Origin: Anaerocolumna sp. MB42-C2
GTDB taxonomy: Bacteria > Bacillota > Clostridia > Lachnospirales > Lachnospiraceae
NCBI RefSeq assembly: GCF_030913705.1
Contig: NZ_CP133190.1
Span: 2,557,501 to 2,621,500, forward strand
Length of the DNA: 64,000 nucleotides
Direction of reading: 5' to 3'
The position numbers were made by a program, and so were the translations under genes. The notes below the pieces were generated by a model that was given only the letters and a program-made list of their open reading frames with translations, was not told the DNA's origin and searched no databases. Position 1 is the first letter of the stretch. Every line of letters starts with the position of its first letter. Shown here piece by piece: positions 14,695 through 53,677 of the stretch.

Positions 14695-15318
14695 TTATGA
14701 ATTTTTCATTACGATATTTTCAATATCATTTGCGACATCTTCACAGGCATCACAGCATTTTTCCAGTCTACGGAAGATTTCTGTCCATACCATCAGCTCA
14801 ATTGGATCTTTTGATGTTTTATACAGGTTACGTACACCACTAAGATACAGTGCATCTCCCTCTTCTTCCAGACGGTTGATTTCTACAATCTCAGAATGTA
14901 ATCTTTTGGATTTTTTAAAATTCTGAAATTCCGCTAAAGCAACATCCATGGATTTGCAGCAGTCTACAATCATTTCCGTAAATTTTAATATTTCCGGGCG
15001 TATGGATTGTACATTAAAAATATCAATACCCATTAACACATCTTCAATCGCATCCGTAACATCATCAATTTTTTGTGAAAGACTGGTTATATCTTCTCTC
15101 TCAATAGGAGGAAGGAATTCTTTCACTAACCTGTTCAGCATATCATGTTTTGCTATATCTGCGGAATGCTCAATATTATGCATTTCACGAAGCTTCTCTT
15201 CCAATTTTTTTATATCAAATTCACGTAACGTTTTGTTTAATATTTCAGCGGATTTTAATGAAAATTTTGATAAATCTACAAATGCCTCAAAATAATTATA
15301 ATCTTTTTTACCTTTCAT
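14695..15318 (-). CDS. DUF47 (PhoU-like) Pit accessory protein
   Basis: A 207-residue all-helical protein of the DUF47/YkaA family, related to PhoU. Typical features are the N-terminal YFEAFVDLSKFS, the HNIEHSADIAKHDM segment and the acidic DDVTDAIEDVLMGID helix that in PhoU-like proteins binds metal clusters. DUF47 genes are usually paired with pit phosphate transporters, as here. The start has AAAAGG 7 bases upstream. Its 5' region contains the structured element at 15332-15398, which ends 13 bases before the ATG. Confidence 0.88.
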   Translation of the reverse strand: MKGKKDYNYFEAFVDLSKFSLKSAEILNKTLREFDIKKLEEKLREMHNIEHSADIAKHDMLNRLVKEFLPPIEREDITSLSQKIDDVTDAIEDVLMGIDIFNVQSIRPEILKFTEMIVDCCKSMDVALAEFQNFKKSKRLHSEIVEINRLEEEGDALYLSGVRNLYKTSKDPIELMVWTEIFRRLEKCCDACEDVANDIENIVMKNS

Positions 15319-15331
15319 ATATATACCTTTT

Positions 15332-15398
15332 CATATCCCAGCTTGCCGGGATACTGCCACATAATCAGCTGAAAGAATCTTAGTGTGGCATTCCTTTC
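15332..15398 (-). ncRNA. Pseudoknot-type 5' leader element, copy 1 (before the DUF47 gene)
   Basis: Minus strand order: GAAAGGAA, TGCCACA, 8 bases, CTTTC, 9 bases, TGTGGCA, then GTATCCC...GGGATA and TG. TGCCACA pairs with TGTGGCA, while GAAAG can pair with CTTTC inside that loop, giving an H-type pseudoknot. The last helix is TATCCC/GGGATA. The same order recurs at 29606-29681 and 32957-33026, always just 5' of a start codon on the sense strand. No known riboswitch class was recognised. Confidence 0.65.
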
Positions 15399-15450
15399 TC
15401 TTCTAATATTTTCTTTCAACCAAAATAGTTAAATATAAAATACTTAATAT

Positions 15451-28085: not shown

Positions 28086-29603
28086 TTATTTCTTTTCATC
28101 TTTCGTTGTCTTCTTACGGACAGCACTTATCATAGGAAGACCTGTGTCATAATCCAACTGTCTCGGTTCATACTCTTCATTTTCCCTCTGTCTGGTATAA
28201 CCGTCATTTGCCCATACAGATACCCTGTCTTTCCTCCATGGTCGGACCGCCCATTGGTATCCACGGTATAAGTCCCTGGTCCGGTTCATATGTTCTAAAA
28301 GTTCATCATGCATTTTATTTCGAATCTCTGCATAAGCTTCCTCCCCGATCAAATTATTTACTTCAAAAGGATCTTCTTTCATATCGTAAAACTCATCGGT
28401 ATCCAACAGGTGGATTACCAGCTTATAACGTTCACTGGTTATGGCACGCATCACCTGCAATCCTCCGAACCCATCATGGTCTACCTCATATCTTGTAAAT
28501 TCCAGGAATACATAATCATTTATCTTCTCGTTGCAGTTATAAATCTGAGGAAGCATGCTTTTACCTTCCAGAATCACCGGAACCGGCAGTTTAAAGTAAT
28601 CTAAAACCGTAGGTACAATATCAATGTGAGATGCCGGAGCCGTAACCGTCTTACCTGCTTCTCCGCCTTTTATAATAAGAGGTATATTGGAAACCTCCTT
28701 ATAGGCTGTCGCATTTTTCATCTGCAGCCGGTGTGCCCCAAGCATATCTCCGTGGTCAGATGTAAATATTACCATTGCATCCGGTATCTGTTCCTTAATT
28801 ACATCTAATACTCTGCCGATTTCATAATCTACAAAAGAGTTACATCCCATAAACAGAGATAATAACGTAGATGGCTTGTTGATTTCCTCCTTTGTCTGAT
28901 TCATTGCATCTCCTGCCCAAAGCTGCTGCATCATGGGTTTCTTAGTCAGATCATCCTGAAAATTCGGATTATCCTCAAACTGAAATCCTTCATACATGGT
29001 ATTATAAGGCGCCGGACAAATACAAGGTCCGTGAGGCTCATCATAGGACAATACAAGAAAGAACTCATCATCTTTATTCTCATGAATAAAATCTATGGCA
29101 CGATTGGTACACCGGTGGGCATAGGTAAATTCTTCGGTAATATCTTCATCAAAAGACGTAGCCGGATTTCTCGAACGAAGCCTGTCTTCCTCGCTAAGTT
29201 CCTCCAGATAACATCTCATATCATACCAGTATTTTTCATCCCAGCCCTCAGGACATTGTCCAAGTCCAAAATAGTCTCCGCCGTCAAGATGCCATTTTCC
29301 CACATATCCGCAGTGGACATGATTGTCGCTAAGCCGTTGTCCAATGGTCTTAACATTGGCACCCATAGCAATACTGTTAGTCACCATACCATTTGTATGA
29401 GGAAAGGTTCCTGTAAATAATGCCGAACGGGCAGGTCCGCACACAGGCTGGCAGGTATAGGCATTATCATATTTAATTCCTTCTTTCGCAAGCCTGTCTA
29501 TATTAGGTGTTATCATCTTTTCATTTCCGTAACAGCCAAGCATATCCTTTCTGGTTGTATCTGTCATAATTAATACAATATTTTTTTTCATTTTAATACC
29601 CAT
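28086..29603 (-). CDS. Sulfatase (type I, formylglycine-dependent)
   Basis: A 505-residue cytoplasmic-type sulfatase. The activation motif C-x-P-x-R is Cys55-G-P-A-R59, where Cys is converted to formylglycine (by an anSME in anaerobes, not seen here). Metal-site residues occur in IMTDTTRKD and FTSDHGDMLGAH; GKWHLDGGDYFG is the usual downstream block. It hydrolyses sulfate esters, probably on a sulfated sugar, since it is expressed with a sugar-type sodium symporter and near a ROK regulator. No signal peptide, so the substrate is imported. The start has GAGGTG 8 bases upstream, and that site lies in the last helix of the leader element 29606-29681. Confidence 0.92.
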   Translation of the reverse strand: MGIKMKKNIVLIMTDTTRKDMLGCYGNEKMITPNIDRLAKEGIKYDNAYTCQPVCGPARSALFTGTFPHTNGMVTNSIAMGANVKTIGQRLSDNHVHCGYVGKWHLDGGDYFGLGQCPEGWDEKYWYDMRCYLEELSEEDRLRSRNPATSFDEDITEEFTYAHRCTNRAIDFIHENKDDEFFLVLSYDEPHGPCICPAPYNTMYEGFQFEDNPNFQDDLTKKPMMQQLWAGDAMNQTKEEINKPSTLLSLFMGCNSFVDYEIGRVLDVIKEQIPDAMVIFTSDHGDMLGAHRLQMKNATAYKEVSNIPLIIKGGEAGKTVTAPASHIDIVPTVLDYFKLPVPVILEGKSMLPQIYNCNEKINDYVFLEFTRYEVDHDGFGGLQVMRAITSERYKLVIHLLDTDEFYDMKEDPFEVNNLIGEEAYAEIRNKMHDELLEHMNRTRDLYRGYQWAVRPWRKDRVSVWANDGYTRQRENEEYEPRQLDYDTGLPMISAVRKKTTKDEKK

Positions 29604-29605
29604 TG

Positions 29606-29681
29606 CATAACACCTCTGTTTATAGATGTGTTACTGCCACAAATAAAAAGTGTGAAAGAATTAATATGTGGCATTCCTTTC
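29606..29681 (-). ncRNA. Pseudoknot-type 5' leader element, copy 2 (before the sulfatase gene)
   Basis: Minus strand: GAAAGGAA, TGCCACA, 8 bases, CTTTC, 12 bases, TGTGGCA, then GTAACAC...GTGTTA and TGCA before the ATG. The layout equals copies at 15332 and 32957. The final helix changes as a unit (TAACAC/GTGTTA here). Its 3' strand contains the GAGGTG ribosome site of the sulfatase gene, so folding could hide it. It lies in the 101-base gap after the symporter gene. Confidence 0.68.
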
Positions 29682-29704
29682 AGTTATTCTATTTATCTTT
29701 CAAA

Positions 29705-32893: not shown

Positions 32894-32922
32894 TTGACAA
32901 TAGTACTATATAGTACTATCCT
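32894..32922 (+). promoter_or_regulatory. MarR promoter with operator between -35 and -10
   Basis: -35 TTGACA (32894-32899) and -10 TATCCT (32917-32922), 17-base spacer. The spacer and -10 edge are filled by ATAGTACTATATAGTACTAT (32900-32919), a perfect 20-bp palindrome, ideal for a dimeric MarR repressor controlling itself. Confidence 0.75.
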
Positions 32923-32956
32923 ATATAAAAAGGTGATCTGGTTTAATAGATTATAA

Positions 32957-33026
32957 GAAAGGATGCCACAAAAGGATACTTTCAGCCTCTTTATTTGTGG
33001 CAGTATCGCAGCCAGCCTGCGATATG
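32957..33026 (+). ncRNA. Pseudoknot-type 5' leader element, copy 3 (before the MarR gene)
   Basis: Plus strand: GAAAGGA, TGCCACA, 8 bases, CTTTC, 12 bases, TGTGGCA, then GTATCGC...GCGATA and TGCAA. It sits between the MarR promoter and the start codon at 33042, so it is in the mRNA leader. The final helix is TATCGC/GCGATA, differing from copy 1 (TATCCC/GGGATA) at both partners of the changed pair. Confidence 0.68.
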
Positions 33027-33041
33027 CAATTAGGTATAGAC

Positions 33042-33467
33042 ATGAAAACTTACGGTGGTTTTTTAATATCACAAATACGTCAGCTTCAAGGTCGGGCATT
33101 TGAAAAAATGCTGAAAGAAAGTGGCATAGAAGCGTTTAACGGTGCACAGGGAAGAATTCTTTATGTACTATGGGAGTATGAAAAGTTATCCATTACAGAC
33201 ATAGGACGGCTTACTTCTCTGGCTAAAACAACATTGACAAGTATGCTGGACAGAATGGAAGAAAGTGGACTTGTAGAACGGATTCCTGATAAAAAAAATA
33301 GAAGGCAGATTTTTATAACAATTACAAAAGAGGCAAAAGGATACCGTAAAATGTACGATCAAGTTTCTGAACGGATGAACGAATTGTTTTATCAAGGTTT
33401 TACAGATGTTGAAATTGAAGATTTTGAAAATAAATTAAGAAAAATCATCAATAATTTAGAAAAATAG
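33042..33467 (+). CDS. MarR family transcriptional regulator
   Basis: A 141-residue winged-helix regulator (MKTYGGFLISQIRQLQGRAF). DNA-binding blocks are LSITDIGRLTSLAKTTLTSMLDRMEESGLVER and the wing DKKNRRQIFITIT. The start is set at 33042 because the upstream in-frame codons lie inside the leader element; the ribosome site (TTAGGT) is weak. It probably represses its own promoter through the 20-bp palindrome and controls the downstream oxidase-fold gene, 12 bases away. Confidence 0.88.
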   Translation: MKTYGGFLISQIRQLQGRAFEKMLKESGIEAFNGAQGRILYVLWEYEKLSITDIGRLTSLAKTTLTSMLDRMEESGLVERIPDKKNRRQIFITITKEAKGYRKMYDQVSERMNELFYQGFTDVEIEDFENKLRKIINNLEK

Positions 33468-51799: not shown

Positions 51800-53677
51800 A
51801 GAAATAATGGTTAACATTATTTCCCTCCCGTTGAACCGTACATACGGGTCACGTATACGGCTCTACAACTTATATTCCAACTTTTCTTAGATAATAATTT
51901 AAAGGATTGAGCAAACCTGCATTGTCCTTTATTTTGTTTTCAAGCAAATCTGGGCTGATAATAAAATTCACTACGTTCATTCCACTTCTTCTGTACCAAC
52001 CCAGTCTTGAATTTGCAACTTTATAGATTGCCTCATGGTCGAATCCATTCTTATTTTTTCGATTTAGATAACATAAATTTCTGTATATCGTCTTAGGCAT
52101 TTTCCATTGTTTTATAACAATTACTCTTATTTTATGCCTAAGCCATGTTCCAAACTCTTCCATGAACTGTTTCATCATTCCGATTCTGAAATAGTTAATC
52201 CATCCTCTTACTATTTCATTCACTCTCTTTGTTGTTTCCGCAAGCGGTCGTGAAATCGCTTTGTTTCTTTTGAGGTATTCACTCATTTTCTGTTTCAGTT
52301 TCTTTTTCTTCTCTGTGGTTGGTTTCACTTTCCATTCGCCACCATGTTTCAGAAATGTAAATCCTAGATATTTACTCCTTGTCGGTCTGACTACCTTAGT
52401 CTTTGTTGCATTCACCTTTAGGAACAGCTTTCTTTCAATCCACTCTGTTATGGACTTCATCACTCTGTTTGCCGCCAATTCACTTCTCGTGAATATCAAT
52501 GCATCGTCGGCATATCTCGTGAAACGCAGACCTCTTTGTTCCAGCTCTTTATCTAGCTTATCAAGGTAGACGTTCGACAACACAACCGACAACGGTCCGC
52601 CTTGTGGAACACCGGTGATTGTTGCTTTTTCCAGTCCTTTTTCCATTACTCCTGCTCTTAAATATTTGCGAATCAGATTTAATGTTGTACTGTCATTTAC
52701 TTGTTCTCTAAGAATCTGAATTAATTTGTCATGATTCACCGTATCAAAGAATTGTTCTATATCAACATCAATGACCCATTCATATCCCTCATTAAGATAA
52801 TCCAATGCTTGCTTTATAGCGTTATGGCAACTTCTTCCAGGTCTGAACCCATAACTGAATTCACTAAATATTTCTTCATAAATATCAGATATCGATTGTG
52901 CAATGGCTTGTTGTATCACTCTGTCCAAAACCGTTGGTATTCCCAGTGGTCTTTTCTTCCCATTATCCTTTGGAATGTATGCTCTACGCACTGGCTTGGG
53001 CATATAGGTTCTGTTTCGAATTGACTGTACGATTGTGTCTTTATTTTCTCTGATGTATGCACCAAGTTCATCTACAGTCATTCCATCTACTCCACTTGCA
53101 CCTTTATTCGCCACCACCTTTTTATAGGCTCTGTTTAGGTTTTCTTTCGATGTAATCATATCTATTAATTCCACTGTTGTTACTCCTCTGCTTATTACTA
53201 AATTTATACACATCACCCCTCTGGATATAGATAATTGTCATTGGTTACGTTCCTACTTTCTTTATCCATCCGATTTCTGGCTTGCGTATTATTCTCTTAA
53301 TAACGATTTGTACTATAAATCGTTTCAGTCCTTCGGTTATTACACCTACTATAACTTCATCTGACTCCCTCCCTAAACCTTTTTCGACCACATCTATGAT
53401 ATGTGGGTAGGGTCTCCCAAGGTAAGACACTAATCTTTCGTTCCACAACCTCTTGATTTACAACTTCGGTTTACGTTTACCATTTGGGCTTTGGTTTGTC
53501 TAGCAACCTTACCCACCTAATCGCCTTATCAAGTTTCTGTACGTAGGCTCAAGAACTTTGCTACACCACTTCCTTCATCCATACCATTACTGATACCAAC
53601 TTGTGGTTCGCTACACTTGGCGGTAAATACCCGCGACTGGACTTGCACCAGTTAGATTAGTGCCATGCTTGGCACAC
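51791..53677 (-). mobile_element. Group II intron (IIC-like placement)
   Basis: On the minus strand the element begins GTGTGCC at 53677, matching the GTGYG 5' consensus, and its ORF encodes a reverse transcriptase/maturase. After that ORF, domain V is clear (GAGCCGTA...TACGGTTC, catalytic AGC), then a domain VI stem with a bulged A in CTACCC. The 3' end is probably 51791 (…CCCTAT), with 51796 as the alternative. The 5' exon ends with a hairpin (53684-53729) plus ATTCTA, the setting favoured by group IIC introns. About 1.9 kb and apparently complete. Confidence 0.85.
51870..53174 (-). CDS. ltrA: Group II intron reverse transcriptase/maturase
   Basis: A 434-residue LtrA-type protein starting at GTG 53174, with AGAGGAG 8 bases upstream. 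Reverse transcriptase blocks are VANKGASGVDGMTVDEL, RPLGIPTVLDRVIQQA, FSYGFRPGRSCHNAI, the catalytic RYADDALIF and the KYLGFTFL block, then the maturase X domain (INYFRIGMMKQFM). The C-terminus lacks a visible HNH endonuclease domain, as in IIC introns. It supports splicing and target-primed reverse transcription of its own intron. Intact by reading. Confidence 0.93.
   Translation of the reverse strand: MELIDMITSKENLNRAYKKVVANKGASGVDGMTVDELGAYIRENKDTIVQSIRNRTYMPKPVRRAYIPKDNGKKRPLGIPTVLDRVIQQAIAQSISDIYEEIFSEFSYGFRPGRSCHNAIKQALDYLNEGYEWVIDVDIEQFFDTVNHDKLIQILREQVNDSTTLNLIRKYLRAGVMEKGLEKATITGVPQGGPLSVVLSNVYLDKLDKELEQRGLRFTRYADDALIFTRSELAANRVMKSITEWIERKLFLKVNATKTKVVRPTRSKYLGFTFLKHGGEWKVKPTTEKKKKLKQKMSEYLKRNKAISRPLAETTKRVNEIVRGWINYFRIGMMKQFMEEFGTWLRHKIRVIVIKQWKMPKTIYRNLCYLNRKNKNGFDHEAIYKVANSRLGWYRRSGMNVVNFIISPDLLENKIKDNAGLLNPLNYYLRKVGI

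Follow-up and report, generated by a model that had tools for sequence, protein, structure and literature searches.

The window analysed in this study, a 64,000-nt stretch of the Anaerocolumna sp. MB42-C2 genome (contig NZ_CP133190.1, positions 2,557,501 to 2,621,500), carries three copies of a folded RNA element with a length of approximately 105 nt. The element almost certainly represents a new structured RNA family, which is located before start codons and shows a narrow range in the samples searched. The best explanation of its features, to which we assign a probability of roughly 55%, is a mobile RNA-level element that resides between the Shine–Dalgarno (SD) sequence and the start codon of a gene and acts as a split ribosome-binding site. 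A first-pass annotation of the window had recognized the structured family, a pseudoknot, a covarying helix, and the position 5′ of start codons, all of which were retained here; the pairing partner of CTTTC had been misassigned and the insertion between SD and start codon had not been noticed. The alternative offered in that annotation, a mobile or genome-wide regulatory hairpin, comes close to the explanation favored now.

The strands of the element follow each other in the order P1 5′, P2 5′, P1 3′, P2 3′, and then P3. The sequences UGCCACA and UGUGGCA pair to form P2, which is interleaved with P1; together, P1 and P2 constitute an H-type pseudoknot with the hairpin P3 located 3′ of it. The interleaved H-type arrangement of UGCCACA/UGUGGCA had been described correctly at first, but the CUUUC strand pairs with an upstream, covarying GAAAGA(A), which is seen in copies A and B. 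Because this upstream strand covaries with CTTTC, a main helix of CTTTC with the adjacent GAAAG was rejected; the adjacent GAAAGGA forms an SD-like stretch of its own. The upstream strand lies in a second purine stretch approximately 25 nt 5′ of UGCCACA with the consensus (G/A)(G/A)(T/G)TGAAAGAA; its complement is UUCUUUCA(A/C)(C/T)(C/T), and the pairing of the two is P1. The search expression matched 82 of the 106 copies, and in 79 of these P2 begins 1–2 nt past G(A/G)AAGG. The loop from P1 3′ to P2 3′ comprises at least 24 nt in 19 of 56 measured copies (of 106), and such a long loop often consists of an extra hairpin, as judged by eye.

Copy B is encoded on the minus strand and extends approximately from position 29592 to 29704 of the window, not from 29606 to 29681 as annotated at first. 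It starts directly after the stop codon of a gene for an SSF-type symporter (PF00474), and its end adjoins the ATG of a sulfatase gene (PF00884; start codon at 29589–29591, second in-frame ATG at 29601–29603). Read in its own direction, copy B comprises the P1 5′ strand UUUGAAAGA (29696–29704), GAAAGGAA as the proposed 5′ half of the split SD (29674–29681), the P2 5′ strand UGCCACA (29667–29673), the P1 3′ strand UUCUUUCACA (29651–29660), the P2 3′ strand UGUGGCA (29635–29641), the P3 hairpin (29608–29633), and GGGUAU as the proposed 3′ half of the split SD (29596–29601). The helices are supported by the covariation of P1, P2, and P3, the proposed 5′ half by its complementarity to the 16S rRNA tail, and the proposed 3′ half by SD pairing and co-folds.

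Copy A (15319–15421, minus strand) is located between the gene of a PHO4-type phosphate transporter and a PhoU_div (DUF47) gene, both assigned with Pfam. Its P1 5′ strand GGUUGAAAGAA (15411–15421) is followed by GAAAGGAA as the proposed 5′ half of the split SD (15391–15398), the P2 5′ strand (15384–15390), the P1 3′ strand UUCUUUCAGC (15368–15377), the P2 3′ strand (15355–15361), the P3 hairpin (15334–15353), and AGGUAU as the proposed 3′ half (15323–15328), downstream of which the start codon follows (15316–15318). Copy C (32938–33041, plus strand) is located in the leader of a MarR-family gene (PF01047; start codon at 33042–33044). Its P1 5′ strand is degenerate, and no convincing one is visible. 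The remaining parts are GAAAGGA as the proposed 5′ half (32957–32963), the P2 5′ strand (32964–32970), the P1 3′ strand UACUUUCAGCC (32977–32987), the P2 3′ strand (32996–33002), the P3 hairpin (33004–33024), and AGGUAU as the proposed 3′ half (33032–33037). The three copies were thus found where, and on the strands on which, the first-pass annotation had placed them, and a start codon follows each of them as claimed.

The core pattern TGCCACA-N6-12-CTTTC-N6-16-TGTGGCA was found 22 times in the 6.44-Mb genome from which the window derives, whereas a reversed control pattern gave no match. In 21 of the 22 matches, a short joint leads from the core to a hairpin, behind which lie a GCAATGGGTGT-like stretch and an ATG (judged by eye); the exception is locus L005. 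Twenty of these 21 loci, with copy A left out, formed the alignment A2, from which the covariance model R1 was built with the helices P2 and P3 only; any further helix could thereby be examined in an alignment that had not been fitted to it. R1 matched at least 117 places in the genome at E ≤ 0.001, and the search for more copies envisaged in the first-pass annotation therefore yielded many more copies, with covariation among them. Within the window, copies B, C, and A scored 115.2, 92.9, and 89.1 bits, respectively, and the next match reached 17.6 bits. Since copies B and C belong to the training set, copy A alone (E 9.8 ∙ 10−16) is an independent match. The 106 distinct copies of this genome used below are 105 of the 117 R1 places plus one extra weak match (37.0 bits). 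Outside the 105 are the seven weakest places (L208–L214), the four strong places L006, L009 (copy A), L011 (copy C), and L018, and one tandem neighbor at L141 lost to overlap; an ATG is present at L006, L009, L011, and L018.

No known family could be assigned, in agreement with the first-pass annotation. Using Rfam 15, the window gave no match at the element at the gathering threshold, and the sole match was a group II intron elsewhere. Among 20 of the 22 first loci, searched up to an E-value of 5, the only match at the element was mir-1252, which overlaps the L004 copy and was dismissed as a chance match (E 4.2, 26 bits versus a gathering score of 70). Eleven further loci, searched up to an E-value of 2, gave none at the element.

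The covarying helix behind the pseudoknot, P3, was borne out in the 106 copies, in which eight of its nine pairs show changes in both strands. P2 did not vary in the first 20 copies, but both-side changes occurred at five of its seven pairs in the 106 copies. In the latter, 93.6% of the P2/P3 cells were paired as compared with 80.7% in shuffled and at most 52.9% in slid alignments, the underlying alignment A3 having been fitted to P2 and P3. In A2, which was not fitted and to which P1 was added, 93.5% of the cells were paired versus 85.0% after shuffling, and the covariation score was above all 500 shuffles. The doubly changed pairs and the pair types of this small alignment were reached by 41 and 107 of 500 shuffles, respectively, so that two of five measures lie within the shuffles. 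P1 was analysed in copies from several species (233 assembled, 206 with the P2 anchor, 168 with both P1 anchors after removal of duplicates). Its three outer pairs were formed in 154, 146, and 142 of the 168 copies, while the means of shuffles, which take no account of relatedness among the copies, were 79.7, 106.6, and 125.2. The exchanges observed at these pairs were U-A/G-C, G-C/A-U/U-A, and G-C/A-U, and slid registers showed nothing comparable to the true register. The P1 anchor (TGAAAGAAAA, two mismatches allowed) is biased toward GAAAGAA; therefore, an unselected count is given separately: exact GAAAG was absent from the P1 5′ region in 41 of the 106 copies, and copy C is a case of this kind, which indicates that P1 is not universal.

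The position in front of start codons is a nearly constant feature of the family. Of the 106 copies, 98 lead to an ATG and one to a TTG, each opening an ORF of at least 60 amino acids in the element's own sense, and the random orientation that the first-pass annotation had considered as an objection was not observed. Some of the seven copies without a called ORF have an ATG with a short or cut ORF. Ninety-one of the 99 starts fall on two adjacent model positions. R1 includes the ATG, which favors a fixed start position, but the ATG-free pattern agrees with this result (21 of 22 in this genome). In other species, 78 of 88 matches of the ATG-free pattern were followed by an ATG with an ORF of this size 20–84 nt downstream (0.195 for random positions), and six of the remaining 10 continue into a further tandem unit. 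Based on rough ORF calls, 83 of the 106 copies have a same-strand ORF of at least 100 amino acids within 400 nt upstream, nine an ORF on the opposite strand, and 14 none. Hence, most copies probably lie between cistrons, and any effect that they have would be exerted at the RNA level.

The downstream genes identified include dxr, miaA, rbfA, ribF, pyrH, nusB, cinA, ligA, mnmE, ispF, cysS, apt, nrdR, accC, leuD, and deoB, as well as a phosphoglycerate mutase-like gene, an flhA-like gene, genes for parts of ABC transporters, and a response regulator gene. Twenty-seven downstream proteins were scanned for families and 25 matched, with no common pathway among them. The elements of pyrH (L155, G000:C1:120404) and dxr (L108, 123632) are located on the same strand at a distance of 3.2 kb, presumably in one operon.

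Copies were detected in all 15 Anaerocolumna genomes searched, with 3 to at least 58 copies per genome; G003 and G004 contain three each, and every other genome of the genus at least 21. In the same sample, two weak matches came from a single genome among 22 that represent other genera of the family, and none was found in 24 genomes of other families of the order. A sample of 397 genomes of the family contained 14 with matches at E ≤ 1 ∙ 10−4 (three of the genus, 11 of other genera); at least three of these matches (G210, G301, G338) belong to a sister type described below. In a sample of 398 genomes of the phylum, only the genome studied here matched. Stricter filters were used in all of these many-genome searches (genus, family, and phylum), and the copy counts per genome are lower bounds. 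Named carriers are Anaerocolumna, Clostridium sp. KNHs205, Robinsoniella, and metagenome-assembled genomes called Anaerocolumna, Herbinix, or Clostridiales; Anaerocolumna and Robinsoniella are members of the Lachnospiraceae. A pattern match in Flavobacterium was judged to be a chance match, and a phage origin was rejected, because the strict pattern did not occur in viral contigs.

Comparison of orthologous genes revealed gain or loss of the element between close relatives. The dxr element is present in one of 13 genus genomes read, namely, in the genome studied here, and this gain or loss is seen between close species with proteins 92% alike. The miaA element occurs in two of 13 genus genomes read (14 miaA loci, with an unreadable upstream region at L248 and a missing start in G001). 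For 15 element-bearing genes of the genome studied here, an orthologue start was found in 1.2 Mb of the relatives G006 and G010, and six of these have at least one relative without the element, as judged by eye. Three sites allowed for a clean comparison. Upstream of the L109 gene, the sequence ...TAAAAAGAACATGGAGAGGAAAAA-[element]-ATATG is opposed to ...TAAAAGGAGCATGGAGATGAAGATTATG at the empty site of G010. The ribF gene of G006 is preceded by ...TTTTTATAGACATTAATAGGAGCATATA-[element]-ATATG, and the empty site of G010 reads ...TTTTTATAATAATAGGAGTAATTCGTATG. In the same manner, the sister-type copy L311 is present in G010 and the site is empty in G006. At all three sites (two of the type found in the window, one of the sister type; by eye), the SD of the empty site recurs just 5′ of the element. 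For dxr and miaA, the sequence preceding the ATG is too diverged for a clean insertion call. An SD-like motif 5–20 nt 5′ of the P1 anchor was detected in 67 of 141 non-tandem copies, as compared with 16–23 of 141 in five control windows; for the copies of the genome studied here, the numbers are 24 of 58 versus 2–9. The sequence comparisons argue for insertion between SD and ATG and for mobility, both of which are likely.

Tandem arrangements were also observed. L042 contains about five 106-nt units head to tail, of which the outermost is truncated and the ATG-proximal one is intact; two units are present in L081, and half-units occur in G010. The tandem half-units of L310 and L299 (P1-GAAAGG-P2-P1′) are devoid of P3 and are apparently slippage products. 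At orthologous sites, the arms at times differ as whole sets, as if copies replaced one another (by eye). By eye, no terminal inverted repeat was visible in the 106-nt unit of L042 and no target-site duplication at the empty sites, and no transposase was found. An origin from REP/RAYT or IS200/IS605 elements was rejected, since the Y1 transposase (PF01797) gave no match in the genome studied here, whereas the same search matched five of 14 control genomes. Other repeats were noticed in the vicinity of the element. Immediately upstream, a hairpin repeat of another kind with the sequence GATGCCGC-loop-GCGGCATCATGTC, or a variant of it, is often present (L115, L117, L122, L128, L135, L137, L156, and L183), and another dispersed repeat (GCTGCCTTTTATCGGAAATTTAAG...) was found in the dxr leader of three relatives (L228, L229, and L240). 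Near the miaA start of G009 (L251), there is a short GAAAGGCTGCCGG-like piece with the rest of the element absent, which is perhaps a remnant or due to chance.

Two short stretches of the element are complementary to adjoining parts of the 16S rRNA tail, which reads GGAUCACCUCCUUUCU in relatives. Neither a pattern search nor the Rfam model located a 16S rRNA in the available sequence of the genome studied here; for the pairing tests, the tail was taken from G006 and G009. GAAAGG fits CCUUUC and GGGUG fits the adjoining CACCU with one G-U pair, so that on the 16S strand GAAAGG continues exactly where GGGUG ends. For pairing of the tail with the 10 nt that precede P2, the energy is −8.74 kcal/mol, compared with −5.04 kcal/mol for shuffled sequences (n = 99). 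The local SD within the last 20 nt is weaker in element genes (−5.82 kcal/mol, n = 99) than at empty dxr and miaA sites (−8.39 kcal/mol; 12 dxr and 10 miaA sites, L247 and L248 left out) and in 707 other ORFs (−8.15 kcal/mol; at least 200 amino acids, first ATG taken). A local SD better than −6 kcal/mol was present in 60% of the element genes and in 74% of the other ORFs. The 3′ motif of the 99 copies was GGGTG in 45 cases, GGGTA in 22, AGGTG/A in 10, another GGGT sequence in four, and none of these in 18. Co-folds with P1 3′ blocked comprised 60 copies of this genome that have both anchors and a start; the tail paired with both halves in 55 of them, versus 16 of 60 with a shuffled tail (one shuffled tail each).

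The two purine strands of the element also differ from each other. At the 5′ end of the 106 unselected copies, GAAAGA was found 61 times and GAAAGG once, and the stretch before P2 contained GAAAGG in 75, GGAAGG in seven, and GAAAGA in one of them. This fits a 5′-end strand that pairs with UUCUUUC of the element itself and a strand before P2 that pairs with CCUUUC of the 16S rRNA. A sister type (type II) consists of a local P1 hairpin and P3 and has neither P2 nor GAAAGGA. It carries a contiguous GCAGGAGGU (GGAGGU) just before the ATG in all four copies of the genome studied here, which were counted by pattern, and in L326, the gene behind which presumably encodes ribosomal protein L18. The sister-type copies are located at L137:1625–1712, L199:2502–2589, L212:1517–1605, L336, L326:1502–1592, and L311:3879–3967; variants carry motifs other than GGAGGU (CGGGUAU in L325, GAGGAU in L328, and GGGGGUU in L311). 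Two distant relatives have a helix that links the two parts directly, as seen by eye: GAAAGGAAAA-[GUGCA..UGCAC]-GGGUG in L322 and AGAGGAG-[CCAUGC..GCAUGG]-GAAUUGAUAUG in L324. Taken together, the weak local SD, the complementarity to the 16S tail, the co-folds, the difference between the strands, the sister type, and the helices of L322 and L324 support a split SD, for which we see about even chances. GAAAGG could in part serve an alternative pairing with CUUUC, and GGGUG alone, at normal spacing, might be enough for initiation. A trade-off between a strong contiguous SD and the integrity of P2 was rejected as not significant (at least six P2 pairs in 10 of 15 copies with such an SD versus 71 of 84 copies without; rank correlation, p 0.16). 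A leader peptide starting at the (N)TG-CCA of P2 was also rejected: this frame runs through the element without a stop in 25 of 60 copies as compared with 20 and 10 in the other frames, which is no clear sign of coding.

In the favored reading, the element would insert, or be retained, between the SD of a gene and its start codon. The pseudoknot and P3 would fold away the approximately 75 nt between GAAAGG and GGGUG/GGGUA, and the joined halves would be complementary to one continuous stretch of the 16S tail, CACCUCCUUUC, with the G-U pair included. This arrangement would allow the 30S subunit to bind both halves by base pairing, with the usual spacing to the AUG, and the invaded gene would therefore stay translatable, although its own SD is located approximately 105–115 nt upstream. 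UUCUUUC within the element resembles an anti-SD that GAAAGAA would keep paired in P1; upon opening of P1, this sequence could instead bind GAAAGGA and thereby turn the site off. Ribosome binding via both halves, on/off switching, and a spread by transposition of some kind are what we infer here. Tentatively, and with less confidence, this may be extended to a selfish RNA that inserts specifically into the SD–AUG interval of active genes and hides by refolding the ribosome-binding site, possibly with copying at the RNA level during ribosome binding. With an anti-SD mimic that has two alternative partners, such an element might also serve the cell as an on/off switch. If true, it would be the equivalent, at initiation sites, of introns, inteins, and translational bypass elements.

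The tandem arrays and the gain and loss between relatives look selfish, and GGGUG/GGGUA is kept at an ordinary spacing from the start codon. Both would also be expected of a mobile repeat without a role in initiation, for which the weak SD at the 3′ end suffices and the pseudoknot helps the repeat to spread, for instance, as a structure recognized by a reverse transcriptase or transposase. We regard this as rather unlikely, since it leaves GAAAGG unexplained, a conserved complement of the 16S rRNA that differs from the P1 strand, and accounts neither for the sister type with its contiguous SD and without GAAAGGA/P2 nor for the location before starts.

The same anti-SD look-alike with its two mutually exclusive partners could alternatively belong to a translational switch of a global regulon, in which binding of a protein, a small RNA, or a second messenger to the pseudoknot decides whether GAAAGGA, the start region, or both are free or paired with UUCUUUC. 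More than 100 copies are in line with such a switch, as is the presence of the element at the same gene in 10 of 12 orthologues of other species (by eye; loci preselected for the element). The lack of a theme among the downstream genes and the gain and loss between close species, as in the case of dxr, speak against it, and we consider it improbable, slightly more so than the mobile repeat.

An element for the processing or stabilization of intercistronic mRNA would agree with the 83 copies behind a same-strand ORF, but it predicts neither a fixed distance to the ATG nor complementarity to the 16S tail and is very improbable. P3 is not followed by a U-run in the copies of the window (by eye) and is therefore not an intrinsic terminator. 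Least probable is a classical metabolite riboswitch as considered in the first-pass annotation: an H-type pseudoknot close to the ribosome-binding site is also a feature of the preQ1 and SAM-II riboswitches, which bind metabolites and have few and related target genes, but the present element has no Rfam match, occurs in at least 117 copies, and precedes unrelated genes in those examined, which makes this possibility very unlikely.

Returning to the split ribosome-binding site, the closest precedents differ from the element in several respects. The split sites of phage T4 contain an intact SD. In T4 genes 25 and 38, RNA structure between SD and AUG shortens the spacing (22 to 5 nt and 27 to 11 nt in the two cases) and restores a functional distance, which resembles the arrangement proposed here (PMC3014915). 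Unlike these two phage genes, the present element is a mobile, genus-wide family with a pseudoknot and SD halves of its own. To our knowledge, the BOX, RUP, and SPRITE repeats of Streptococcus pneumoniae are not tied to start codons in one orientation. Their description, in which orientation and distance were analysed, presents them as small interspersed repeats with extensive predicted secondary structure that are proposed to have proliferated and to affect cotranscribed genes, and the element is similar to them in its genomic behavior (PMC3049150). It differs in being located right at start codons, and no terminal inverted repeats were visible in it by eye. In Escherichia coli tisB, a standby-site pseudoknot and a distant single-stranded site are needed for binding of 30S/S1; the pseudoknot aiding 30S loading is similar to the role proposed here, but tisB is a single gene with a sequestered SD downstream and not a repeat (PMC7708055). 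By the features tested, the element belongs to none of these three groups.

In the open-access literature, as far as its accessible parts go, no description of the family or of insertions between SD and start codon was found (a term search in the case of surveys of new bacterial RNAs). We know of no element class located strictly between SD and start codon. Because no such class is known to us or was found, we take the element as a new class; a more cautious view is that of an interspersed repeat with an unusual target. Within the limits of our knowledge and the open-access literature, it would be the first bacterial class with the interval from SD to start codon as its target, and split ribosome-binding sites would for the first time be seen in use across a whole genome. 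It makes testable how the ribosome finds a start when the SD is presented in two pieces held by RNA structure, and how more than 100 genes, including housekeeping genes, can be invaded, apparently without being silenced.

Two minor observations were made in the window. The group II intron match mentioned above is a domain match (RF02001, 114.4 bits) at positions 53427–53596 on the minus strand. A TTGACA sequence and the palindrome ATAGTACTATATAGTACTAT are located at 32894–32919, 5′ of copy C, and possibly represent the promoter and operator of the MarR-family gene.
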